This document shows, piece after piece, positions 14,434 to 29,076 of a DNA stretch of 64,000 nucleotides; the stretch's first letter is position 1, and each line of letters starts with the position of its first letter. Source of the DNA: Branchiostoma floridae (lineage: Eukaryota > Chordata > Leptocardii > Amphioxiformes > Branchiostomatidae); assembly GCF_000003815.2 (NCBI RefSeq), contig NC_049990.1, forward strand, positions 21,998,798 through 22,062,797, given 5' to 3'. A program made the translations under genes and the position numbers. A model generated the notes under the pieces. It saw only the letters and a list, made by a program, of their open reading frames with translations, was not told the DNA's origin and did not search any database.

Positions 14434-17400
14434 ATGGGAAGCAAACTTCGGTGCACCGTCGTTCTGTTCCTTGTCCTGGGTCTTCTCACCAGCCATAGGA
14501 CCAGTGCGGAGAAGGTTCTGATGTTTCCTACACCAGGGTTTTACAGCCACTGGCTGGTACTGGCAGAAATCGGGCAGGCGTTGGTTGACAGGGGTCATAC
14601 CGTCACCGTCGTTCTTCCCCAGGACCTTGTGGACGCACGGCGGGCAGAAAGGTCTGGTTTTTGGTTTGAGACCTTTCAAGACCACGGAACCGGGGCAAGA
14701 ATCAAGGAGCTTATAGACTACAACGTGGCAATGGCTGGACAGGCGTCTACATCTATTTTCCATACCTTAGAGGCAGGCATCAATATGACCGGGACAATGA
14801 CAAGACACTGTGACTTACTTCTGAGGGACAGTACCCTGGTAGGTCGCCTGAGGGCGGCACAGTACAGTGTAGTTCTTACTGAACCCATCTTCCCCTGTGG
14901 CGCTCTCATGGCAGCTCATGTAGACGCCAAGCTGCCAAATGTCGCCGTCCTGCGATATGATGTTTATTTTCAGGACGTTAAAGCTACAGGTGTCCCCCAC
15001 CCCCTGTCCTACGTAACATCAGTGGAAACGGATCTCACTGATCAAATGACTTTTCTACAGAGATTTCAGAACGTTGGCTTTTACAGTCTTGTTCACGTGG
15101 CGGCGAGCGTGTACGACGGCGTGGCCCGGGAGTACCTCGGCGAGGGAGTGACTACACAGAGCGTCATGTCCCGTACGACGTTGTGGCTGTATCAAACCGA
15201 CCCCGTGCTGGATTTCCCCCGTCCCACCATGCCCAACATGGTCCATGTTGGCGGACTAAACGTCCGTGAGGCTGCGCCACTTCCCAAAGTGAGTTCGAAG
15301 AGCCTAACTTGTATCCAGTCTTGGCCCGATTACTTGGCTAATACTGTCAGAAAGCATGTACAATGTAAAAGCTAGCGCGGTATAGAGTCGAGTACCAGAT
15401 TAATGTATTTTGGTGTCATTGGTTTCAAAACACTTTAACTTGGCGTTTGTCACCGTGTAAATGCCATTTTTACTCTCTTTTAGCCGTTGAATAACACTTG
15501 CTTGTCGATCATGGACCGTAGACTAACTACATGTGGTTCATCCATACAGGACCTGGAAGCGTTCATGCAGTCTTCCGGACAGCACGGAGTGGTTATCGTC
15601 AGTTTCGGGACGATTGTGAAGACCATGGAATCGGAACAGATAGAAGTCTTCACTGCAGCCTTCGCCCGTCTCCGCCAGAAGGTGGTGTGGCGGTACACGG
15701 GAGAGAAGCCGGCCGGTCTGGGCAACAACACCAAGCTGATGGCCTGGCTGCCTCAGAACGACCTGTTAGGTACGGGACACATTCCAAATCGCTCTTAACG
15801 GGACACATTCCAAATCGCTTACTTGTTTGATAGTAACGTTACACGACTTCAAATTCATCATGAGGGATTCGCCAATAAAACAAGGAGTTGGCAAGAAATC
15901 AGAATGTTGGAATGTCAATTATACAACAATGATAATGATTATCGTTAATGGACATTCATACCCACGACCAACGAATGCTAATCTATACATTGATAACAGT
16001 CCAAAAGGTTTGTCTATGATGACACAGCCGCCATGTTGGTTGGTTAAACTTAAACCTATCAATTTGCACCTGTTCACATAGTATCATACATTCAAATGTA
16101 CCTTAAACTTGAAGATATAACCAATCAACATGGCGGACTCCTTACGTCAGAGTCACGTGGGTGGCAACAGCCTAAAACCCGGTTCTTTTAAGCGATATCC
16201 ATCATGGGAGAGTATTGGCCACCTATCGTGCATTGCGCTAGTTCTGTGTAGTTTTAAAGCCATACTTAAGAATGTCTATACTAAAAGTATTATTTGTGAA
16301 ATGAACAATTTGACACAGGCCACCCGAAGACCAGAGTCTTCATAACCCACGCGGGTTACAACGGCGTGTGCGAGACGCTGCACCATGGCGTACCGATGGT
16401 TTGTCTGCCGCAGTTTGGAGACCATCCCGGTAACACCGCTCAGGTGGTGGCCAGAGGGCTGGGGGTGAAGCTAGACATCAACAGGGTGACATCAGACGAG
16501 TTGTATCAAGCCATTCTCTATGTTCTCACCAACAACAGGTACTCTTAGTTTGCATGAAAGCTTATCTGCGTTCAGATACCATGTAGATTGTTGTAAGTGT
16601 TGGCGTACTCATCACCAAAACAGTGATGTAAGTGTGGAAATTGTTGTCCACCAGAGACAGTGTTGTTAACTGTTAGCTTGGAATGTGTTCAGAACCGTAT
16701 CAGGGGCAATGTTTTAGCGTGGAGAGTATTCAACACAATGGACATTGCTGTTAGTGTGGAAAGTGATCAGCACCAGGGACAGGGTTGTTAGCGTAGGGAT
16801 CAATCAGTATCAGGGGCAGTGCTGTTAGTATGGGAGTGTTCGGCACCAGAGACAGTGTCGTTAGTTTGGAATGTCTTTTGAACCGGAGAGTGTTTTAGCA
16901 TGGTGAGTATTCAGCACGATGAACATCACTGTTAGCGTGGAAGGTGATCAGCACCAAGGACAGTGTTGTTAGTATGTGAAGTGTTCAGAACTGGAGACAG
17001 TGCTGTTAGAGTAGGGATTATTCAGTACCAGGGACAGTGTTTTAGTGTGGGGATTGTCCAGAGCCAGGGATAGCGTTTTACTGGGGGATTGTTCAGTCCC
17101 AAGGACAGTGTTGCTAGTATGGGAAGTGTTCAGCACCAGAACAGTGGAGATTGTTCAACACCAAGGGCAGTGTTGTGAGTATAAGAAGTGTTCAGCACCA
17201 GGGACAGTGTTGTTAGTATAGGAAGTGTTCAGCACCAGGGACTGTGTTGTTAGTATGGGAGTGTTGAGCACCAAGGACAGTGTAGTTAGCGTAGGTATCA
17301 TTCAGCACCAGGGACAGTGTTTTAGTTTGGGAAGTGTTCAGCACCAGGGACAGTGCTGTTAGTGTGAAAGTATTCAGCACCCGGGACTGTGCTGTTAGTA

Positions 17401-18396: not shown

Positions 18397-19045
18397 GAAT
18401 AGAAGCAAACGTCTATTTACGGGGAGGGAGTTAAAAATCTTACCCCTTTTTATGTCTTTGTGTTCTCTTGAAATGTAGCCTTTATGTTTAATATCAGGTA
18501 CCAAAGCAGGCGTAAAAAACGTTCTGTGTAACGTTACATGATAAAGACCCGGTAACATACCAAACGGTCGCGATCGACCTTTACAACTTTGTGCACACGG
18601 TCCAAAGCTCATAATAGAAAACAACATGGATGTGATCGCGTGACACAGTTCCAACGCACATGCGTTTTATAATAACAGGGAACTTTGTACAAAAATCAAA
18701 TGTGGCGTATTTGTAACTCAAACTTGAAAACTGGTCTTGGTTTATTCCTTGGTTTATTCAACACCCCTGTTCAGATAGGCGGATAAAAAACAAACCAGTC
18801 AGAAAATGCTTATAGATTCGATGTAACTGCAAAAAAAGCCCCACACTTGTTTATGATCTGCTTGGAGATGAAATAATATGACTGCTGCAGTGGAACTGGT
18901 GAAATGCTATATGCCCGGAGGATAACCGTTGTTTACATAACCCGCTAACGCTGGTCATCTATTCTCATGATGACCTCATTCAAACAGCAGGGGTTTTATC
19001 AACTTCATGTGATTAACCGAAACGTACGCAGTGCATTGCCATTGT
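18397..19045 (+). promoter_or_regulatory. Orphan relic of a UGT promoter
   Basis: Homology to the UGT-B upstream region (28418-28980) is continuous. Examples are ACGGGGAGGGAGTTAAAAA, CAAAGCAGGCGTAAAAAACG, ACAACATGGATGTGA, CACACTTGTTTATGATCTGC and GTTGTTTACATAACC. Homology stops near 19045, before the region where the TATA box and start codon of UGT-B lie. No UGT exon follows within 9 kb. It is evidence for a third UGT copy. Confidence 0.65.
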
Positions 19046-19165
19046 GAACTAGGGGGTCCAAACTCACAGCACTTACTTTCTGTCCTAAGGGCTATCTACC
19101 TCTCAAAAATCACAGTAGTATATAGTCAGCACGCTGACTATTATTATTCAGGCGCAAGCAGGCGC

Positions 19166-19314
19166 AGGTCAAAGGTCATCGCCTGCCTAGTGGAGCAGGT
19201 CAGAGGTCAGATATTATTTAGTCAGGGCGGGTCAGAGGTCAGAAGTCACATATTATGTATTCAGGCGCAGGTCAGAGGTCAGATATAATGTATTCAGGCG
19301 CAGGTCAGAGGTCA
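19166..19314 (+). promoter_or_regulatory. Array of five DR1-type nuclear receptor elements
   Basis: Direct repeats of AGGTCA separated by one base occur at 19166-19178 (AGGTCAAAGGTCA), 19197-19209, 19229-19241 (GGGTCAGAGGTCA), 19269-19281 and 19302-19314. The surrounding unit of about 33 bp contains TATTCAGGCGC and ATATTATGTATT. DR1 is the established binding arrangement for RXR heterodimers, HNF4 and PPAR-like receptors. The elements lie 1.2 kb beyond the RRM2 copy stop and about 1.3 kb past UGT-A. Whether any receptor binds is inference. Confidence 0.6.
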
Positions 19315-19338
19315 GATATTATGTGCCCTTTTGATACA

Positions 19339-19353
19339 CCCCCCCCCCCCCCC
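19339..19353. repeat. Poly-C tract
   Basis: A run of 15 cytosines directly follows the DR1 array. Such tracts are prone to sequencing and replication slippage, so its exact length is unreliable. Confidence 0.7.
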
Positions 19354-19481
19354 TCGCCACAAATGAACCTCCCCCACCCAAATCGTGAATGACATGCCCT
19401 TATTTGGCCTGGTTCTAAGTCTCTACGTCACAAAGTAAAAAATAAACAAACATGACAATGACCGTCTGATTTTTCCTTTCT

Positions 19482-19487
19482 TTTATT
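19482..19487 (-). terminator. Polyadenylation signal of the RRM2 copy
   Basis: On the minus strand AATAAA lies only about 9 nt after the TGA stop (19496-19498). The context is AGAATAAAAGAAAGG. A signal this close implies a very short 3' untranslated region, unlike the long ones usual for cellular RRM2 messages. Confidence 0.5.
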
Positions 19488-19495
19488 CTGTACTT

Positions 19496-20533
19496 TCAAA
19501 AGTCAGCATCCAGCGTGAACTTCTGCTGTTCAGAGGAGGACATCACCCCCATCTTCTGATACTCTCCCACCTTCTTCTCAAAGAAGTTGGTCTTTCCCTC
19601 CAGAGAAATGTTCTCCATGAAGTCAAAGGGGTTCTCGCTGTTGTAAAGCTTACTGCACATGAGTTCTCCCAGCAGCCTATCTGCGACAAACTCGATGTAC
19701 TGTTTCATCAGGTCTTGATTCATCCCAATCAGCTTCACTGGAAGAGCTTCCGTCAGGAACTCTTGCTCAATCTTAACAGCATTGTCGATAATCTGGTGAA
19801 TGCGCTCTTGACTGGGCTTATTGATCAGATAGCTGACCATAAGACAGGCAAAGTCGGTGTGCAGACCCTCGTCTCTACTGATCAGCTCATTAGAGAAAGT
19901 CAGCCCTGGCATAAGTCCTCTTTTCCTCAACCAGAAAATTGCTGCGAAGGCCCCGGAGAAAAATATCCCTTCCACAGCAGCGAACGCAACAACACGATCC
20001 CCAAAAGTGCTTTTCTCGTCTCCGGTCCACTTTAGGGCCCAGTCAGCTTTCTTCTTTACACAAGGTATGGTCTCAATCGCACTGAACAGATGCTCTCTTT
20101 CATGCGGATCCTTCACGTAGGTGTCGATTAAGAGGCTGTACATTTCAGAATGGATGTTCTCAATGGCAATCTGGAAGCCATAGAAGCACCTCACCTCAGG
20201 CACCTGCACCTCTTTGGTGAATCTCTCTACCAGATTTTCATTCACGATTCCGTCACTAGCTGCAAAGAATGCCAGGACGTGTTTGATGAAGTGTTTTTCG
20301 TTGTCATTCAGACTCTCCCAATGCTCCAAGTCCTTAGAGAGATCAACTTCCTCCGTTGTCCAGAATGATGCTACGGCCTTCTTGTACATGCGCCAGATGT
20401 CGTGGTACTGGATGGGAAAAATGACGAAGCGTCTGGAGTTTTCACGCAGTAGGGGCTCACACTGCATCTCTCGGTCTACAGAGACCTTAAGTACGGACAG
20501 CTGGTTAGACTTCGGTGGCTGCGCTGGAAGCAT
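19496..20533 (-). CDS. RRM2: Ribonucleotide reductase small subunit (RRM2-like), single exon
   Basis: Class Ia ribonucleotide reductase R2 supplies the diiron-tyrosyl radical used to make deoxyribonucleotides. The 345-residue frame is uninterrupted and closely resembles animal RRM2 from the [15 protein letters not shown] block to the C-terminal FTLDADF, which docks on R1. Expected metal ligands are present: Asp94, Glu125, His128, Glu188, Glu222 and His225, with radical Tyr132. It lacks most of the cellular N-terminal extension. Cellular RRM2 genes are normally multi-exon, so one exon suggests a retrocopy or a gene carried by the neighbouring viral element. Just before the ATG, TTTTTTTGCTAACAG resembles a splice acceptor, so a short upstream exon is possible. 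The gene points away from the PolB gene across the tandem-repeat region. All key residues are intact, which argues for selection or recent origin. Confidence 0.93.
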
Positions 20534-20540
20534 CTTGCGG

Positions 20541-20640
20541 CGGTTCTGTTAGCAAAAAAAGGAAGACCTTTTATCTTGTCTGTCACCATATATTTGTATA
20601 TTTACATTTGCATCAGACGAGTCGGTACTCTGATTGGTCC
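20541..20640 (-). promoter_or_regulatory. Putative RRM2-copy promoter
   Basis: Reading upstream on the minus strand are GATAAAAG (20568-20575), the octamer ATGCAAAT (20606-20613) and a CCAAT box (20633-20637). The order TATA-like, octamer, CCAAT is typical of an S-phase-type promoter. The presence of a promoter argues against a simple reverse-transcribed copy, unless it was acquired from the insertion site. Confidence 0.45.
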
Positions 20641-20759
20641 AGATATACAGAGTTTAGGGGGGATATGTAATTCCTTAGCTCAAGTCGGGGTGAAACAGAG
20701 GTCAGGCTGAACTTTTGACCCACCAAGGTAACTATGACAACCCGCCCTATTGTTCACCG

Positions 20760-22290
20760 CTGGCCGCGGAACCTAGTTGCCCGTGCTGAACAACGCCAGA
20801 TGGCCCATTGTTCTTGTGTGGGTAGGAAACAATAGACGCCGCGGCTTGGTATGCACACGGCTGGCTTGGACAGACCTAACGGTAACCTTCAAGGAGAGGT
20901 CGTACAGAGAAATACAGTGACCACCCTGCATGTTGTACCAAGGAGCTTTTATCAGTAAGCGCTGGCCGGACACTACGTTATCGGACATACATGGCCAGCC
21001 CTAACTCATTGGAACCGAGGAGGTAAGGAAGAAACGCAAAACCTTTATCAACAAGTTGAACAGGGTTCTTGGCCAAACGTTACGTGGGATAAAGTGGGCC
21101 CGTATTGAAATGCAAATCGGCCTCTGGCCCCTGGTTGACCCCGCTGGCCCCGACCCTTGGTGGTCGCGCTGAAGAACGCCAGATGGTGACATTGTTCTTG
21201 TGCGGGTAGGAAACAATAGACGGATTGGTCACCGCGGCTTGGTATGCACACGGCTTGGGAGAGAGCTAACAATGCACTTGGAGTCAGGCCCGTGCGGAGT
21301 CAGGCCCGTACAGTGAGCGTCACACATTCTGAGCAGCTACAAGACAACAGAGAACGGTGCTGTCTGGACACTGCGTTGTACGTACATACATGGCCAGCCC
21401 TAACTCATTGGAACCGAGGAGGTAAGGAAGAAACGCAAAACCTTTATCAACAAGTTGAACAGGGTTCTTGGCCAAACGTTACGTGGGATAAAGTGGGCCC
21501 GTATTGAAATGCAAATCGGCCTCTGGCCCCTGGTTGACCCCGCTGGCCCCGACCCTTGGTGGTCGCGCTGAAGAACGCCAGATGGTGACATTGTTCTTGT
21601 GCGGGTAGGAAACAATAGACGGATTGGTCACCGCGGCTTGGTATGCACACGGCTTGGGAGAGAGCTAACAATGCACTTGGAGTCAGGCCCGTGTGGAGTC
21701 AGGCCCGTACAGTGAGCGTCACACATTCTGAGCAGCTACAAGACAACAGAGAACGGTGCTGTCTGGACACTGCGTTGTACGTACATACATGGCCAGCCCT
21801 AACTCATTGGAACCGAGGAGGTAAGGAAGAAACGCAAAACCTTTATCAACAAGTTGAACAGGGTTCTTGGCCAAACGTTACGTGGGCTATAAAAGGGGGC
21901 CCGTTTTGAAATGCAAATTGGCCCGTGCTTGGTGTACACACGGCTGGGAACAAAACCAACTCTTCCGCTTGGAGAGGGCCGTGCGGACAAATTACAGTTA
22001 CCACCACCCGCGTACCGAGCAGACAAGACAGCGGTGGCCGGACACTACGTTATCGGACATACATGGTCAGCCCTAACTTCTGGGAATCGAGGAGGCAAGG
22101 AGCAAATGTAAAAGCTTTATCAACAAGTTGAACAGGGTTCTTGGCCAAACGTTACGTGGGCTAAAGGGGGCCCGTTTTCAAATGCAAATTGGCCTCTGGC
22201 CCAAAGTCGACCCTGCTGCTGAAGAACCACAGATGGCCCTTTGTTGTTCCCTGCCAGGAGACAATAGACGGAGTCGTCGCCCAGACAATA
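20760..22290 (+). repeat. Tandem repeat array, two near-identical 399-bp units plus divergent partial units
   Basis: Units starting CATGGCCAGCCCTAACTC at 20991 and 21390 are 399 bp each and almost identical. A third at 21789 is about 272 bp and more diverged. A fourth begins at 22061 with CATGGTCAGCCCTAACTTC, and a partial copy precedes the array from about 20760. Each full unit contains GAGGAGGTAAGGAAGAAACG, a TATA-like segment before GGGCCCG (CTATAAAAGGGGG in the third) and an octamer ATGCAAAT (21110, 21509, 21911, 22182, also 22374). It also holds AACAATAGAC next to CATTGTTCTTGTG, a partial inverted repeat. The array fills the gap between the divergent RRM2 and PolB genes. Short open frames inside it are repeat by-products. 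Confidence 0.85.
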
Positions 22291-22439
22291 GACGGAGTCC
22301 AAGCAAGTTGTCCTGCCTGCCGGCTTCGTTCCGCCTCACCAACTCGCTTTGGGCGGAAGTGGCCCGTTTTGTTATGCAAATGCCCATCTGCTCTTCGTGA
22401 AGGGACATGTCCATATTTGGCCAGCCAAATTTTTTCATC

Positions 22440-22812
22440 AATAAAAAGGCCACAGGCGAGACACCGGGCAGTAGTTACCAGCCTGGGTTCACCCTGAACT
22501 GTGCTCCGATTCTGGCGTGGAACCTACTTGAATGACCGCAGTACCGCTACAGACGGATCGTCTCTTTCTTTCGGTAAGTGGAAAAATTTCTCCGCTACCA
22601 AAACAAGTATTACCCACTGACAACAACGGGTTTTTTTTTCGTTTACAAAAGAGCACAGATACAATAGAAGCCCTTTCTTTGTTTGTCATGGAATACTGAT
22701 GAGTGTGAGGTCGTCGCTCTAGCAAAAGCACTGGTACGAATTCAGCGCTTTAAACAAAACTCTGTATGTTCTTTCAGAACGCAGCAATGATCAAAAGTAC
22801 AGTCAACTAGAC
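22440..22812 (+). promoter_or_regulatory. PolB leader with 5' intron and upstream ORF
   Basis: A TATA-like CAATAAAAAGG near 22440 could place transcription start near 22470. A donor TCG|GTAAGTG at 22574 and an acceptor CTTTCAG ending at 22777 define a plausible 204-bp leader intron. The second leader exon has an upstream ATG at 22787 that opens a seven-codon frame ending in TAG at 22808-22810. That is two bases before the main start GACATGG at 22813. Such an upstream frame would be expected to dampen PolB translation. Exon borders are inferred from consensus only. Confidence 0.45.
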
Positions 22813-25800
22813 ATGGCGTTTACTTGTGATACGTGCGGAAAAACCTTTGCCCAAAAACGTAGTCTCACCCGTCACCAAAAGTCCCACGACCCGAACGCAC
22901 CCACGTACGAGTGCGATTTTTGCGGCAAAAAGTTTCCTAGACGGGACAACCTACTGCAACATCGGCGGCTGCACGATAAACCCAGGCCGGCCCCCACGTT
23001 CTGGTGCCAGCCGTGCAATGTGGCGTTTGACACGGCCCATGCCCTGCAGGCGCACCGAGAAGCCGCACACCCCGTGGCGTCAACCTCCCGTCCACGGAAA
23101 AGGGTTTTCTCCGCAGACGGGGCCGGGCCCAGAGCGAAACGACGACACATCCAACCCGCAGGAGACGACGACGCATTTCCATTTGAGGAAGATCCGGAGG
23201 ACGTGTCTGAAGAGCTGATTCCCCAGCACGAAGACGTGGCTGTTCAGAATCTGTACCGGCAGAAATGGTCCATGATCAGGACGCAGTTCAAGCGGGGCCA
23301 CATCCAGGACACGTACAACTTTAGACTGGAGTCCGAAAATCCTAGCGATCTGGCCGACAACGTATGGGCCATTTTTGGCGACCAGCAAACCGTCTTTAAG
23401 ATCAACCTATCGTTCGGGTTCATCCTCTTGGACGGAGAAACGGGGGCACTGCGATATTTTTACCCTTGTGAAAATAATAGCGGATTTTTACCAGAACCTG
23501 TCCAAGTGGAAAACGAGGATGGTGTCCGACGGTTCCTGGACAAGATAGAGGAGGTCGATCACATGGAGAAGGCGCAGCAGGAGCGCCCCAACAGTAAGTC
23601 CGTCCTGCAGAAGATGGTGAACGTCATGTTTTACGTGCACAAAATCAAGGAACATCCCATCGGTGCCCCGGGGACGCTGACAGACTACATCAGGAACAGC
23701 AGGTCCATCATCGCCCTTTATAGCGGAACGAACGGCCCGTACACGGACAAGCTCTGCTTTTTCCGGTGTCTGGCACTCCATCGGCAATGCGATCGCACCA
23801 GGCTGGAAAGGACGACCAAGAGCCTCTTCAACGAGTACCTGACGTGGGTGGGTAAGACGCCCAGGCAGTTCAAAGGCGTGTCCCTCAAGCACCTGGAGGA
23901 CATAGAGAAATTGTTTGAGGTCGACGTGTACGTCTATGCTCTACAGCCCAATCGCGATGAAGACGCCGAAGATGACGATTTCTTTGCGGAGTTGGTGAGA
24001 CGTCCCCTGTCTACGCACAACAACACGATGTACCTGAATCTCTGCGAGCAACATTACAGTTACATTAAAGATTTTAAGACTTACGCCAAGTCGTACGCGT
24101 GTCCGCAATGCGGAAAGAGGTGGACGCGCCGCGGCAATTGCGAAGCCCACATTCGCACGTGCGACGGTAAGGTGACCAAGGTGTATCCGGGGGGCGCCTA
24201 CCATCTACCGCAGACCATCTTTGAAAAGCTGCAGGACGAAGGAATCGTCGTCCCCGAAGAAGATCGTTACTATCCCTACCGCGCCTGCTTCGATATAGAA
24301 TGTCTTCTAAAACCACTGACTAATCAAAAGACGGACAAGATGACGTGGGAGGCGGCGCATGAACTCTTGAGCGTGAGCGTCTGCTCAAACGTCCCTGATT
24401 ACACCGACCCAGAATGTTTCGTGTCCGAAGGCGACCCGACAAAAGTGGCTGAAGACTTGTTGAATTTCCTACAGCAAATCAGTCGTAAGGCGTACTCCCT
24501 TCTGTCGGAAAAGTTCCTCTCCGTATCGCTCAAGATGGGAGAAATTCGGCAAAGGGATTTGGAAAAAGAGGAAGAAGAAGAAGAGGAAACGGAAGGAGAA
24601 TCCCCGCAAGACAAGGCAAAGCGAAAAGAAAAGCGCATGAAAGAACATTACATGACCAAAATGATGGAGGAACTGAACAAGTACATGAGTCAGCTGGTGG
24701 TCCTTAGTTTCAACGGCGGGAAGTATGACCTGAACGCCATCAAAAAAGTGTTCCTGCCGCTGCTGCTGCGATCGACCAGCAAACTCCGACCCATCAAGAA
24801 GAACAACACGTACATGTCGATTGAAACGGACGACCTGAAATTTCTGGATCTCATCAATTATGTGGCTCCGGGCTTCTCCTACTCTATCCTGCTGAAGGCG
24901 TACGGCTGCCAGGAGACCAAGGGATTCTTCCCGTACGAATGGATGGACAGCTTGGACAAGTTAGATGACACTCAGCTACCACCACGAGCCGCCTTCCATA
25001 GCAACCTGCGACAGTCCGACATCTCGGAGGAGGATTATCTGTACTGTCAGCGCGTGTGGGAAGAGCAGGGCATGACGACCATGAGGGACTTTCTAATATG
25101 GTACAACAACAAGGACGTTAGCCCCATGGTGGAAGCCGTACAGAAGATGACAGAGTTCTACCAGGACAAAGGTATAGACATGTTTAAGGATGGTATTAGC
25201 GTCCCGGGTCTAACACTTAAGTACCTATTCATGAACCTGCCGCACGATACGTACTTTACTCTTCCAGACAATGAGGAGGTGTACAGATTGTATAAAGACA
25301 ACATAGTGGGGGGACCCAGCATCATCTTTCACAGGTACCACGAGAAGGGCAAAACCTACATCAGGGCCGACGAGATGAAATTGTTGGGCAGGGAACCGAA
25401 ACCTTGTCAAAAGGTCATTGGCTACGACGCGAATGCGTTATATCTGTGGGCCCTGATGCAGGACATGCCCTCTGGCCATTACATTCGGCGGCGAGAAGAC
25501 ACGGGGTTTGAAAGAGAATATTCTACACCTCAGTGGGGACGAATGGCCGTCGACTGGTTAGACTGGCTGGCCCAAGAGCGGAACCTCGTCATTCGCCACA
25601 AATTCAATAGCACAGAGAAGCGCATCGGTTCACGTCGAATTCCGGTGGACGGTTTCTGTTCCGACACCGGGGAAATCTTTCAGTTTCACGGTTGCTATTG
25701 GCACGGTCACCGCTGCCCCTTAACTAAAGGCCAATTCTTCAACGATCGTCGCGGCAAGTCTTTCGCGACTTTGCGGGCGGAAACGGCCCAAACGACCGAG

Positions 25801-27120
25801 TACCTGCGAGCGTGTGGGTATACGGTCATCGAGATGTGGGAGTGCCAATGGAAAAACTTGGTAAGAGCCGACGTCCGATTGGCGTCTTTCTTGGAAGGCC
25901 GCAAGACTCCCACCGAACATCTTCCCGACATGACCGGTGAACGCGTCCTCCAGGCTGTTCGCTCGAAGGAGTTGTTTGGAGCAGTGGAATGCGACATCGA
26001 GGTCCCCGCGGATCTCAAGTCGCGCTTCGCCGAAATGCCTCCGATTTTTAAGAACGTCGTGATCTCCATCGACGACATTGGCGAGCACATGAAGGAGTAC
26101 GCCGAGAAGCATCGCATTATGTCCAAACCCAGGCGATCGCTCATCGGTAGTATGTTCGGTCAAAAGATCCTCTTGGCTTCGCCCTTGCTCAACTGGTATC
26201 TCGACCACGGCTTGAAGGTCACTCGCATCTACCAGGTGATGGAGTACAGACCCAAACCCAGTTTTAAAGCTTTCGGAGATGCCGTTAGCGATGCGAGACG
26301 TAAGGGTGACGAGGACAAAACCAAGAAGATCATCGCCGACACCATGAAGCTGATCGGTAATTCGGGCTACGGCAAGACGGTCACCAACAAAGAAAAACAA
26401 ACAGACGTCGAGTATTGCCAAGACGTCGTGACCGCCACTCGAAAGATCAACACTTCGCGGTTTCGGCATCTGATCGTGGTCAACGACAACAATTTCTTTG
26501 AAATTGAGTCGGCAAAGCGCACCATCAAGTTTAACCTTCCCGTGCAAATTGGCTTCTTCGTATATCAATACGCCAAATTACGTATGCTTGCCTTTTACTA
26601 CGACTTCATGTTAAAGTTCGTGGACGTGTCCGATTTCCAGTACTGTGAAATGGACACGGACTCTGCTTACATTGTCATCTCGGCGGAAAAGCTAGAAGAT
26701 GTGATCAAACCGGACATGCGGGAGTCGTACGACCGCGAGAAATCTGACTGGTTTCCCCGAACAGACACCAAACAGAACGCGGCTTACGACAAGCGCACCC
26801 CCGGGCTGTTCAAAGAAGAATGGTCCGGGAGCGGTATTGTCGGTCTGTGCAGTAAAACGTATTACTGTTTCGGCGGAGATGAAGCGAATGACGACAAGTT
26901 CAGTTGCAAAGGGGTGAGCAAACGGTGTAACGTCATCAACCACCTCAAGTACCTGAATGTCTTGCAGACCAAGAAAAGCGGTCAGGGCATCAACAAAGGG
27001 TTTCGCGTGCACAAAAACGAAATACACACGTACACGCAAACTCGAGATGCCTTTTCGTACTTTTATCCCAAACGAAAGGTAAAGAATGACAAGGTCACCA
27101 CTCTCCCTCTAGATATTTAG
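22813..27120 (+). CDS. Protein-primed type B DNA polymerase of an adintovirus/Maverick-like endogenous virus
   Basis: The intact 1,435-codon frame is a family B polymerase of the organellar/viral protein-primed type. Three C2H2 zinc fingers open the protein (Cys5/Cys8/His21/His25; Cys34/Cys37/His50/His54; Cys65/Cys68/His81/His86). About residues 305-420 contain DKLCFFRC (Cys315) and a late His414 in EQHYSY, an arrangement recalling OTU cysteine proteases. A zinc-finger-like CPQCG (430-434) follows. Exonuclease motifs: FDIE (Asp494, Glu496), FNGGKYD (Asn634, Asp639) and YNNKD (Tyr764, Asp768). Polymerase motifs: YDANALY (Asp872), KLIGNSGYG (1179-1187) and DTDS (1281-1284). An insert around FHGCYWHGHRC (958-968) to MWECQW looks like a nuclease-type domain. 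There are no stops or shifts, so the copy is young or maintained. GC content is higher than in flanking DNA. Confidence 0.92.
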   Translation: MAFTCDTCGKTFAQKRSLTRHQKSHDPNAPTYECDFCGKKFPRRDNLLQHRRLHDKPRPAPTFWCQPCNVAFDTAHALQAHREAAHPVASTSRPRKRVFSADGAGPRAKRRHIQPAGDDDAFPFEEDPEDVSEELIPQHEDVAVQNLYRQKWSMIRTQFKRGHIQDTYNFRLESENPSDLADNVWAIFGDQQTVFKINLSFGFILLDGETGALRYFYPCENNSGFLPEPVQVENEDGVRRFLDKIEEVDHMEKAQQERPNSKSVLQKMVNVMFYVHKIKEHPIGAPGTLTDYIRNSRSIIALYSGTNGPYTDKLCFFRCLALHRQCDRTRLERTTKSLFNEYLTWVGKTPRQFKGVSLKHLEDIEKLFEVDVYVYALQPNRDEDAEDDDFFAELVRRPLSTHNNTMYLNLCEQHYSYIKDFKTYAKSYACPQCGKRWTRRGNCEAHIRTCDGKVTKVYPGGAYHLPQTIFEKLQDEGIVVPEEDRYYPYRACFDIECLLKPLTNQKTDKMTWEAAHELLSVSVCSNVPDYTDPECFVSEGDPTKVAEDLLNFLQQISRKAYSLLSEKFLSVSLKMGEIRQRDLEKEEEEEEETEGESPQDKAKRKEKRMKEHYMTKMMEELNKYMSQLVVLSFNGGKYDLNAIKKVFLPLLLRSTSKLRPIKKNNTYMSIETDDLKFLDLINYVAPGFSYSILLKAYGCQETKGFFPYEWMDSLDKLDDTQLPPRAAFHSNLRQSDISEEDYLYCQRVWEEQGMTTMRDFLIWYNNKDVSPMVEAVQKMTEFYQDKGIDMFKDGISVPGLTLKYLFMNLPHDTYFTLPDNEEVYRLYKDNIVGGPSIIFHRYHEKGKTYIRADEMKLLGREPKPCQKVIGYDANALYLWALMQDMPSGHYIRRREDTGFEREYSTPQWGRMAVDWLDWLAQERNLVIRHKFNSTEKRIGSRRIPVDGFCSDTGEIFQFHGCYWHGHRCPLTKGQFFNDRRGKSFATLRAETAQTTEYLRACGYTVIEMWECQWKNLVRADVRLASFLEGRKTPTEHLPDMTGERVLQAVRSKELFGAVECDIEVPADLKSRFAEMPPIFKNVVISIDDIGEHMKEYAEKHRIMSKPRRSLIGSMFGQKILLASPLLNWYLDHGLKVTRIYQVMEYRPKPSFKAFGDAVSDARRKGDEDKTKKIIADTMKLIGNSGYGKTVTNKEKQTDVEYCQDVVTATRKINTSRFRHLIVVNDNNFFEIESAKRTIKFNLPVQIGFFVYQYAKLRMLAFYYDFMLKFVDVSDFQYCEMDTDSAYIVISAEKLEDVIKPDMRESYDREKSDWFPRTDTKQNAAYDKRTPGLFKEEWSGSGIVGLCSKTYYCFGGDEANDDKFSCKGVSKRCNVINHLKYLNVLQTKKSGQGINKGFRVHKNEIHTYTQTRDAFSYFYPKRKVKNDKVTTLPLDI

Positions 27121-27259
27121 AGCGGCTAGTGTGTCATATAATGCGCATAGATGTCTATTGTAAAGCAATCGTGTGATGATGAAATGCTGCTGCCATGACT
27201 CGCCTCTGTAGTAGATAGATAAATAGTACTGCTGGGCAGAGTTGACGTCATTTGCGGGT

Positions 27260-27907
27260 ATGGATGCGAGAATAAAACATCCATGTCGGATGGTTCTAGC
27301 GGGCTGTTCTGGGTCTGGGAAATCTTATTTTGCTCAAAAACTACTGACGACGGGAGCCAGTTGGATTGATCCCGGGCCCTTTCAACACGTGGTGTGGTGT
27401 TATTCGGAGTTTCAGGACAAGCTGCACCGCGAGCTGACTTCGAAACTTGGTTCAAACGTTCAGTTCGTAGAAGGCCTTCCCAACAATTGGAATGACGTCA
27501 TTAAGCCGTCATGCCGAAACGCGCTCGTGATTGATGATCTCATGATTGAGTCGGCCAAGGACACGGATCAAAGAGTTACGAAACTGTTTACCCGAGCCAG
27601 TCGTCATCGGGACCTGTCGGTGATTTTTCTCGTTCAGAACTTGTTCTTCCAAGGCCTGAGAACCATTTCTCTAAACTCCAGTTACATCGTCCTGTTCAAA
27701 TCGCCAAGGGATCAAAGCATGATCACCACGTTAGCTCGGCAAATGTACCCGGGGCACGGCAAATTTCTTCGAGAGTGTTACGAGGACGCCGTCAATAAGA
27801 CGACGTACGGACATCTCTTCCTTGACCTCCATCCCGAAACGCCCCAGGACCTGCGCGTGAGAACCAACATGCTGACGCCACAACCCCAAGTGTACCTGAG
27901 AAAGTGA
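27260..27907 (+). CDS. FtsK/HerA-type genome packaging ATPase of the endogenous virus
   Basis: The frame encodes 215 residues from the ATG at 27260; an open frame without ATG extends a few codons upstream. Walker A is AGCSGSGKS (about residues 14-22) and Walker B is ALVIDD, as in packaging ATPases of adintoviruses, Mavericks and related double-stranded DNA viruses. The family role is DNA translocation into the capsid. The later block with LNSSY, FKSPRD and a C-terminal VYLRK is also typical. The gene starts 139 nt after the PolB stop in the same direction. No frame damage is visible. No capsid, penton, protease or integrase gene is found nearby, so the element is a partial genome. Confidence 0.85.
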   Translation: MDARIKHPCRMVLAGCSGSGKSYFAQKLLTTGASWIDPGPFQHVVWCYSEFQDKLHRELTSKLGSNVQFVEGLPNNWNDVIKPSCRNALVIDDLMIESAKDTDQRVTKLFTRASRHRDLSVIFLVQNLFFQGLRTISLNSSYIVLFKSPRDQSMITTLARQMYPGHGKFLRECYEDAVNKTTYGHLFLDLHPETPQDLRVRTNMLTPQPQVYLRK

Positions 27908-27951
27908 TAAAACGTTCCGTTCGTCTACGCCGTGGTCTCATTTTGCCGAAG

Positions 27952-28042
27952 ATGTCGAAGAGGTTACATCGTCACGCCGATTGTCTTCGGGTGTTGAGCA
28001 AGGCCAACCCGAAATTGCGAAAAGCCATCCTGTCGTCCGCCC
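27952..28042 (+). pseudogene. Truncated third viral gene, small basic protein
   Basis: From the ATG at 27952 about 30 residues are readable, starting MSKRLHRHADCLRVL and rich in Lys and Arg. Small basic virion or core proteins often follow the ATPase in this virus group, so that is the likely identity. Around 28043 the sequence changes without a gap into UGT intron sequence. The remaining open frame to 28167 is therefore not viral. The gene is cut at a recombination or integration breakpoint. Confidence 0.5.
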
Positions 28043-28417: not shown

Positions 28418-29076
28418 TAAAAGCAAATTTAAGACTACGGGGAGTGAGTTAAAAAATCGTACCCCTTTTCATGTTTTTGTGCTATGTTTATTTTCTATGT
28501 CAGGCACCAAAGCTGGTGTAAAAACGTTCTGTGTGCATGATAAACAAACGATCGACCTTTACACCTTAGGAGATCTGTTCACACGGCCAATTCTCATCAT
28601 AGAAAACAACATGGAGGTGACACAATTCCAACCTTATCTGTATGTTATATAACAACAGGGAACTTTGTACAAACATCAAATGCGGCGCGTTGACAACCCT
28701 GTTCAGATAGGCCGAGAAAAACACACCAGTCAAAAAATGCTTGCAGATTCGATGTAACTGCAAACAACAGCCCCACACTTGTTTATGATCTGCTCGGAGA
28801 CGAAACAATGTGACTGCTGCAGTGGAACACGTGAAATGTTATACCGTGAAGATAACCGTTGTTTACATAACCTACTAACGCTATAGTAATCTATTCTCAT
28901 GATGGCCTCCTTATAAACAACAGGTGCTTTATAAAGTTCCTGTGATTGGTCGAACTGTACGTAATGTACGACGAATTGCCAATCAACAGTCCGCTTATAA
29001 AGATAGTCCACAGGTTTCATCATTCATAGGAGCATTCATAGAAGTCTGGAAAGTACCGAGCTGAGAGGGAGACGAC
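28418..29076 (+). promoter_or_regulatory. UGT-B promoter region
   Basis: This is conserved with the upstream region of UGT-A and with the orphan block 18397-19045. A TATA box TATAA lies at 28996-29000, about 80 bp before the ATG, with GTGATTGG and CCAATCA motifs just upstream. The short leader contains GGAAAGTACCGAGC, which is also present before UGT-A. Confidence 0.6.

Follow-up and report, generated by a model that had tools for sequence, protein, structure and literature searches.

An endogenous Maverick/Polinton-type virus of Branchiostoma floridae that very likely carries a captured host RRM2 gene

Introduction

Most chordopoxviruses encode R2, the small subunit of class I ribonucleotide reductase (RNR), without the large subunit R1, and the R2 of leporipoxviruses is close to that of mammals. 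Large parts of the N-terminus are missing from poxvirus R2 proteins, which associate with the R1 of the host in complexes (PMC2900304). Adintoviruses, as defined in PMC11071296, carry homologs of anti-apoptotic genes in most mammal-associated species. No report of an R2 gene in an animal Maverick was found in the open-licence literature searched, most items of which were present as listing entries. Capture of R2 is known in large DNA viruses; the case described here concerns a transposon-like virus of about 17 kb. It was found in a 64,000-nucleotide stretch of the genome of the amphioxus Branchiostoma floridae (C12:21998798-22062797, hereafter the window), where 9 kb at positions 19114-28042 represent the left-hand portion of an endogenous virus of the Maverick/Polinton type encoding PolB, a packaging-type ATPase and an R2 that likely stems from the RRM2 gene of the host.

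Results

R2 is part of an element present in many copies

The sequence-only reading of the window had listed an intact single-exon R2 gene on the minus strand, a tandem array, 399-bp repeats and, on the plus strand, PolB and ATPase genes, all of which are present as described (Table 1). It had also assigned R2 to the same element as PolB and the ATPase, and searches of the 513-Mb genome bear this out: a full-length R2 is located on one strand and PolB and the ATPase on the other, in the same order and orientation, at 12 loci (three on C12 and one each on C17, C9, C11, C2, C3, C4, C10, C15 and C158). Copies are labelled by contig, C12b being the one at C12:19.84 Mb. The R2 protein yielded 74 genome matches, 15 of them full length (1-345) and without stops; the exons of one C2 gene account for seven matches and a diverged C6 gene for two. 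PolB yielded 41 matches and the ATPase 21.

Nine further copies from the set of 12 were compared with the window along their outer sides. In C11, the left and right termini are 17.7 kb apart, the right end lying about 8.5 kb past the ATPase gene. Terminal inverted repeats (TIRs) of 290-402 bp with 96-99% identity delimit C17, C11, C12b and C9, and those of C2 extend over 212 bp at 98%, which makes clear TIRs in five of ten copies. Weaker repeats were seen in C4 (79% over 205 bp) and C3 (57 bp); C12c and C10 yielded none, and the window holds the left TIR only. An exact 6-bp target duplication flanks five of the six copies tested, namely C17 (GACGTA), C11 (GACGCG), C12b (GTTCTC), C2 (GTCGTC) and C9 (CCGGCC, counted with one extra AGT unit at the right end). 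The tested set excludes C3, with its left side in an assembly gap, and C12c, C10 and the window, which have no right end.

In copy C16, an assembly gap occupies the place of R2. Related elements with a PolB at 52-70% identity (on C13, C18, C3 at 6.6 Mb and C5 at 29.1 Mb) have no R2 match nearby; in the C13 relative, a zinc-finger gene occupies the place beside PolB, and the 5.5 kb read there contains no R2. R2 is therefore a trait of one lineage.

The R2 gene derives from host RRM2 and lacks exons 2-4

The C2 gene encodes a full RRM2, with 399 codons distributed over 11 exons. A midpoint-rooted tree was built from 29 R2 sequences, among them 11 element R2s and 13 IMG/VR R2s (of 31 frames read) and no R2s of poxviruses or herpesviruses. 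The 11 element R2s form one clade (100/100) that is sister to the C2 RRM2 (96/90). Mouse and human R2, human p53R2 and the C6 gene are placed outside this element and host clade; the 13 IMG/VR R2s fall still further out (100/100). The window R2 is 87% identical to the host RRM2, 78-80% to the mammalian proteins and 61-70% to the IMG/VR R2s in the tree. It is the host gene, rich in introns, that clusters with the cellular relatives, and transfer from host to virus is therefore the likely direction.

At the C6 locus itself (C6:908200-910600, L065), another R2-like gene is found split in two; it is diverged (70% identical), sits on a long branch and is possibly an older duplicate or a retrogene.

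The first 20-odd residues of the element R2 correspond to host exon 1, from where the protein continues straight into exon 5 at the splice boundary. None of the 11 copies aligned contains host exons 2-4, which are all in phase 0 and measure 66, 45 and 36 bp (49 codons together), and the host introns are likewise absent. The gene was thus probably captured from an mRNA that had skipped these exons and joined exon 1 to exon 5, the simplest explanation of the arrangement.

The R2 protein is intact and conserved

The window R2 is an open frame of 345 codons that matches the Pfam model Ribonuc_red_sm (E=6.5e-118) and mouse RRM2 (E=2.4e-179) as a small subunit of class I RNR. Ten residues that we take to be iron ligands, the radical tyrosine and the transfer path (W58, D94, E125, H128, Y132, E188, D221, E222, H225 and Y325) are kept in all 12 aligned rows, 11 from elements and one from the host. 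In its C-terminal tail, FTLDADF, the window R2 does not differ from mammals; the other R2 frames were selected by this tail, and its conservation is no test for those. Moreover, the ratio of nonsynonymous to synonymous substitution rates (dN/dS) ranges from 0.04 to 0.20 in all 55 pairs of the 11 copies, which indicates strong purifying selection on the element R2s.

Matches to the R1 family (PF02867) were confined to two places in the genome, C7:19.64 Mb and C9:0.30 Mb, both in exon-like pieces and neither beside an element, and no element was found to carry an R1 of its own. With its catalytic residues in place and no match to R1 beside any element, the element R2 probably pairs with the host R1, as shown for poxvirus R2.

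The 49 missing residues fall within the stretch that in vertebrate R2 bears signals for degradation, and in the remaining N-terminus the host motif DREN is changed to DREM or DREK in all 11 element copies. Cyclin F is a further factor that targets RRM2 for degradation (PMC10954691).

The complete element is a Maverick

The sequence-only reading had proposed a two-gene replication module of R2 and polymerase. This proposal has to be revised, since the window holds the left part of a fuller Maverick that also has integrase, protease, capsid-type, PC4-like and Bcl-2-like genes. The PolB frame starts with C2H2 fingers, followed by OTU-like Cys/His motifs (DKLCFFR and HYSYI) and a Vsr-like nuclease insert; the OTU model itself gave no match in this frame. 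The sequences DANALY, KLIGNSGYG and DTDS of the 1435-aa frame are what we take to be the polymerase motifs A, B and C. The Vsr-like endonuclease segment spans 25681-25863 (residues 957-1017). The ATPase matches Pox_A32 with 25.7 bits (cut-off 22.8) and contains the Walker A motif GCSGSGKS and a Walker B-like LVIDD.

The window copy is cut off before the integrase, and the right half was read in C11. Its integrase combines rve (PF00665, E=2.6e-12) with a Chromo domain (E=2e-11). The protease matches Peptidase_C5 (E=2.6e-4) with 21.2 bits, 0.1 bit below the cut-off of 21.3, and is a near rather than a clear pass. The Bcl-2 protein reaches 40.5 bits (cut-off 31.4), and its frame also matches chains of BCL2L10, MCL-1 and A1. 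Altogether, nine C11 frames were scanned against Pfam, four of which gave no match and one a weak match only. The capsid candidate is a frame of 475 codons (443 aa from its ATG), the model of which is of low confidence (predicted local distance difference test, pLDDT, 47.6) and matches mostly double-jelly-roll capsids of virophages, Paramecium bursaria chlorella virus 1 (PBCV-1), adomaviruses and adintoviruses, the best match being a bracovirus protein at 34% identity. Judged by the fold matches of this one model, the 443-aa protein is a probable double-jelly-roll capsid protein. The 281-aa candidate for a penton or minor capsid protein had no Pfam match, and its model was unusable (pLDDT 36).

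The Bcl-2-like gene (L013:7866-8360, at the right end of C11) adjoins the right TIR, presumably contains BH1- and BH2-like motifs, and is 83-89% identical between copies, which is below the values of the whole capsid or integrase frames. Another C11 gene, at L013:6910-7665, contains two stretches of the transcriptional coactivator PC4.

Mapping of the nine right-half genes in nine copies revealed that C11 is open for all nine, as is C12b with an altered end of the capsid frame. Within the stretches read, C12c lacks seven of them and C10 five; C2 lacks two and retains fragments of others, and C17, C9 and C4 contain stops within the PC4 match. No relatives were found in IMG/VR by PolB, capsid or ATPase, in single-protein scans that reach close relatives only. 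Taken together, membership of the element in the Maverick/Polinton group is well supported, and it likely belongs to the adintoviruses.

Layout and borders of the window copy

The features of the window copy are given in Table 1.

Table 1. Coordinates of the features in and beside the element in the 64-kb window.
Feature	Position	Strand	Remarks
Host bases AATCAC	19108-19113		Flank the element on the left; presumably one half (left) of a 6-bp target-site duplication, partner lost
Left TIR	19114-19415		Starts AGTAGTAT; end 19415 carried over from copy C11
33-bp tandem array	19195-19324		Inside the left TIR
R2/RRM2, intronless, 345 aa	19496-20533	-	Without host exons 2-4
R2 leader	20540-20640	-	CCAAT 20633-20637, octamer ATGCAAAT 20606-20613, A/T-rich TATA-like stretch; putative promoter
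399-bp tandem repeats, about 2.4 copies	20961-21923	+	One octamer per unit; candidate enhancer
Region 5' of PolB with two more octamers (22182, 22374)	22182-22449	+	Motif count
A/T-rich TATA-like AATAAAAAGG	22440-22449	+	Read by eye
PolB frame, 1435 aa	22813-27120	+	Open
Packaging-type ATPase	27260-27907	+	Frame also open from TTG 27242 (221 aa, 27242-27907)
MSKRLHRH gene, first part	27952-28042	+	Cut off by deletion; 111 aa from ATG in other copies
Deletion junction	28042/28043		Element left, UGT intron right; right half of element and part of UGT gene missing

The earlier description of 9 kb of foreign DNA between UGT relics is correct as to content and needs revision at both borders, as the element starts at its terminal sequence at 19114 rather than at 19046, and the right edge is a deletion junction and not the end of the element. 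To the left of this junction the sequence follows a gene that continues in other copies, while 28043-28309 matches the UGT intron at 15957-16222 with 95.9%. The left flank (18761-19014) matches the region upstream of the next UGT gene (28693-28947) with 85%. No partner of the left TIR was found at 27001-64000 of the window. Given what both junctions match, the element appears to have entered upstream of a UGT gene, and a single later deletion would have removed its right half together with part of that gene.

Octamers in the leaders and repeats

The octamer occurs 13 times in the window, as compared with 4.8 expected, and none of 100 shuffles reached this number. Six of the 13 are found within 20606-22381, between R2 and PolB; three of these six are in copies of the 399-bp unit and are thus not independent. 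The earlier observation that the gene leaders and the repeats have this octamer in common is real: at least one lies within 100 bp of the R2 start codon in all eight copies read, including the window (two in five of them), and the repeat units and the region upstream of PolB contain it as well. A CCAAT box is likewise present in the R2 leader of all eight copies. The 1470 bp upstream of host RRM2 contain CCAAT boxes and no octamer.

Use of the octamer as part of a terminal origin was considered and rejected, and use as a promoter or enhancer element appears more likely, because the TIR of the window holds no octamer. The octamers may tie R2 and PolB to one expression timing. A shared splice acceptor before the R2 start codon was also considered and dropped, as it is not kept in copy C3.

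The sequence of the 399-bp repeat is also present in C12b and in a further element at C12:5.27 Mb. In C12b, about 6.6 kb (L017:756-7351) without a match to the window spacer are nested in the repeat spacer between R2 and PolB.

Palindromic derivatives of the R2 end

Among 56 R2 pieces, counted without the nine host rows, we found 13 pairs lying within 12 kb, and in all 13 the two pieces point away from each other, their R2 3' ends being on the outer sides; the remaining 30 pieces have no partner. The four pairs that were read (L066-L069) are inverted duplications of the R2 end with arms of 0.8-3.8 kb that are 99.75-99.9% identical. Three of the four contain N gaps, where an assembly error is possible; L068 is free of gaps. 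All four are flanked by exact 6-bp target duplications (CACCAT, CTTCCA, GTCCAA and CGCCGC), and because of these each palindrome was probably inserted as a unit.

A zinc-finger frame is present in three of the four palindromes, shortened in L068. The protein encoded at L067:3309-3944 is a C2H2 protein of 211 aa with an acidic middle and a conserved C-terminal part; it has 102 genome matches, many of them open, and the one pair compared gave a pN/pS of about 0.23. A relative of this gene is located beside PolB in the C13 element.

Discussion

A Maverick with a captured RRM2

We consider it highly probable that the window contains an endogenous Maverick/Polinton-type, adintovirus-like virus that carries a captured, exon-skipped host RRM2, which would boost the supply of deoxynucleoside triphosphates (dNTPs) via the host R1. 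In the proposed course of events, the virus lineage would have captured a reverse-transcribed host RRM2 mRNA with exon 1 spliced to exon 5. The gene lies beside the left terminal repeat, divergent from PolB, with a leader containing a CCAAT box and octamers, and R2 and PolB may be expressed together. The viral R2 would dock on the host R1 through its host-like C-terminal tail, and the complex would raise the dNTP supply for protein-primed replication. Lacking the N-terminal portion by which vertebrate R2 is targeted for degradation, the viral protein might be stable and remain available outside S phase. The earlier idea of a virus carrying its own R2 would thus hold as regards function, the gene itself being in all likelihood a captured RRM2 of the host.

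Several observations weigh against this interpretation or parts of it. A whole, stop-free PolB match is present in only six of the 12 loci (the window, C11, C10, C9, C12b and C4); C17 has one stop, and in the other five the gene is in pieces. No Pfam PolB model registered when the polymerase part was searched at E<=10, and the PolB call rests on the motifs. Copy C4 shows no target duplication. The N-terminus of the host RRM2, as read, has DREN and no KEN motif, and a degradation signal in the host protein is assumed. The synonymous divergence (dS) between host and element exceeds 1, and neither the donor species nor the date of capture is fixed by it. Finally, in the element at C12:5.27 Mb (L075, C12:5264000-5268800) the TIR is joined directly to the spacer, with R2 and its leader cleanly missing; R2 is therefore not needed in every copy. 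Because the capsid gene of this element is 100% identical to that of the R2-bearing C11, a later loss is more likely than ancestral absence, and the reading that the whole branch is without R2 was dropped for this reason.

Other origins of the R2 gene

If a common processed pseudogene or retrogene of RRM2 had landed by chance beside an old virus fragment, this would explain an intronless R2 that is closest to the host gene. The sequence-only reading had itself held that R2 grouping with host RRM2, with no other element copy carrying it, would point to an unrelated retrocopy. R2 does group with host RRM2; however, many copies carry it, the same arrangement recurs at 12 loci with R2 just inside the TIR, and the 11 copies read form one clade under the selective constraint described above, so that this reading is refuted and retains next to no probability. 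It is also most improbable that R2 is an old viral gene shared with DNA viruses that merely converged on RRM2 of the host. R2-only viruses are indeed common among chordopoxviruses (PMC2900304), and the virophage type EMALE07 carries R2 (PMC8547959), but the tree, in which poxvirus and herpesvirus R2s are absent, does not support such an origin: the 13 IMG/VR R2s are all placed outside and are less similar to the window R2 than is the host protein. Moreover, the join of exon 1 to exon 5 coincides with host splice sites.

The same join bears on the question of how exons 2-4 were lost. Viruses trim genes, and a host transcript with an exon 1-5 splice is not in evidence, so that a later deletion inside the virus could be invoked instead of exon skipping in the mRNA. 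We regard this as unlikely, as the join lies exactly at the end of exon 1 and the start of exon 5 in all 11 copies aligned, and the other host introns are gone as well. As for the maintenance of the gene, 15 intact frames and strong purifying selection would also be expected if the copies were kept as domesticated host R2 genes rather than as viral genes. This is very unlikely, since C11, C9, C12b and C4 combine an intact R2 with open genes for PolB, integrase and the capsid-type protein; in addition, the selection may predate integration, and one copy dropped R2. Capture of an exon-skipped RRM2 mRNA by the virus thus remains the explanation that we prefer.

Implications

A captured RRM2 could allow the virus to make DNA building blocks in non-dividing cells. 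The capture supports the notion of Mavericks as viruses that replicate in dNTP-poor cells. The splicing pattern of the donor mRNA seems to be preserved in the captured gene, the N-terminal loss of which parallels that of poxvirus R2 and p53R2. This offers a natural parallel test of whether the loss of the N-terminal region is what a virus needs from R2.

Defective or satellite forms are known for adenoviruses and linear plasmids. By their structure, the palindromes resemble satellite or defective genomes of a protein-primed replicon, and with their intact target duplications they open a route to Maverick replication errors and satellites from genome sequence. Tentatively, and with rather more doubt than confidence, we suggest that a Maverick lineage made a degradation-resistant splice form of host RRM2 a standing replication gene, and that its R2 end seeded palindromic satellites, each made of two such arms in head-to-head orientation, which would have arisen by snap-back during protein-primed replication and been inserted whole by the integrase. 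If so, the virus and its defective or satellite forms would coexist in this genome.

Comparison with known systems

With Maverick/Polinton elements and the Adintoviridae, the element shares TIRs, 6-bp target duplications, an rve integrase with a C-terminal chromodomain, an adenain-type protease, a packaging ATPase, the PolB motifs and a probable double-jelly-roll capsid protein; unlike these, it adds the captured host R2 together with Bcl-2-like and PC4-like genes. EMALE07, a mavirus-like virophage integrated in Cafeteria, is likewise a small integrating virus with R2 (PMC8547959). However, it is a protist virophage, its R2 is unique to one EMALE type, and the likeness is one of gene content and not of compared R2 sequences. 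Vertebrate p53R2 (RRM2B) also lacks the N-terminal KEN region (PMC2900304) and shows 78% identity with the element R2 over 320 aa, but it is a cellular paralog that groups with mammalian RRM2 and not with the element in the tree. The R2 of poxviruses, as in leporipoxviruses and vaccinia F4, resembles the element R2 in occurring without a viral R1 and in missing an N-terminal part. These viruses belong to another class, whereas in the amphioxus element the edges of the lost part coincide exactly with boundaries of host exons, from which the splice form of the donor mRNA may be readable.

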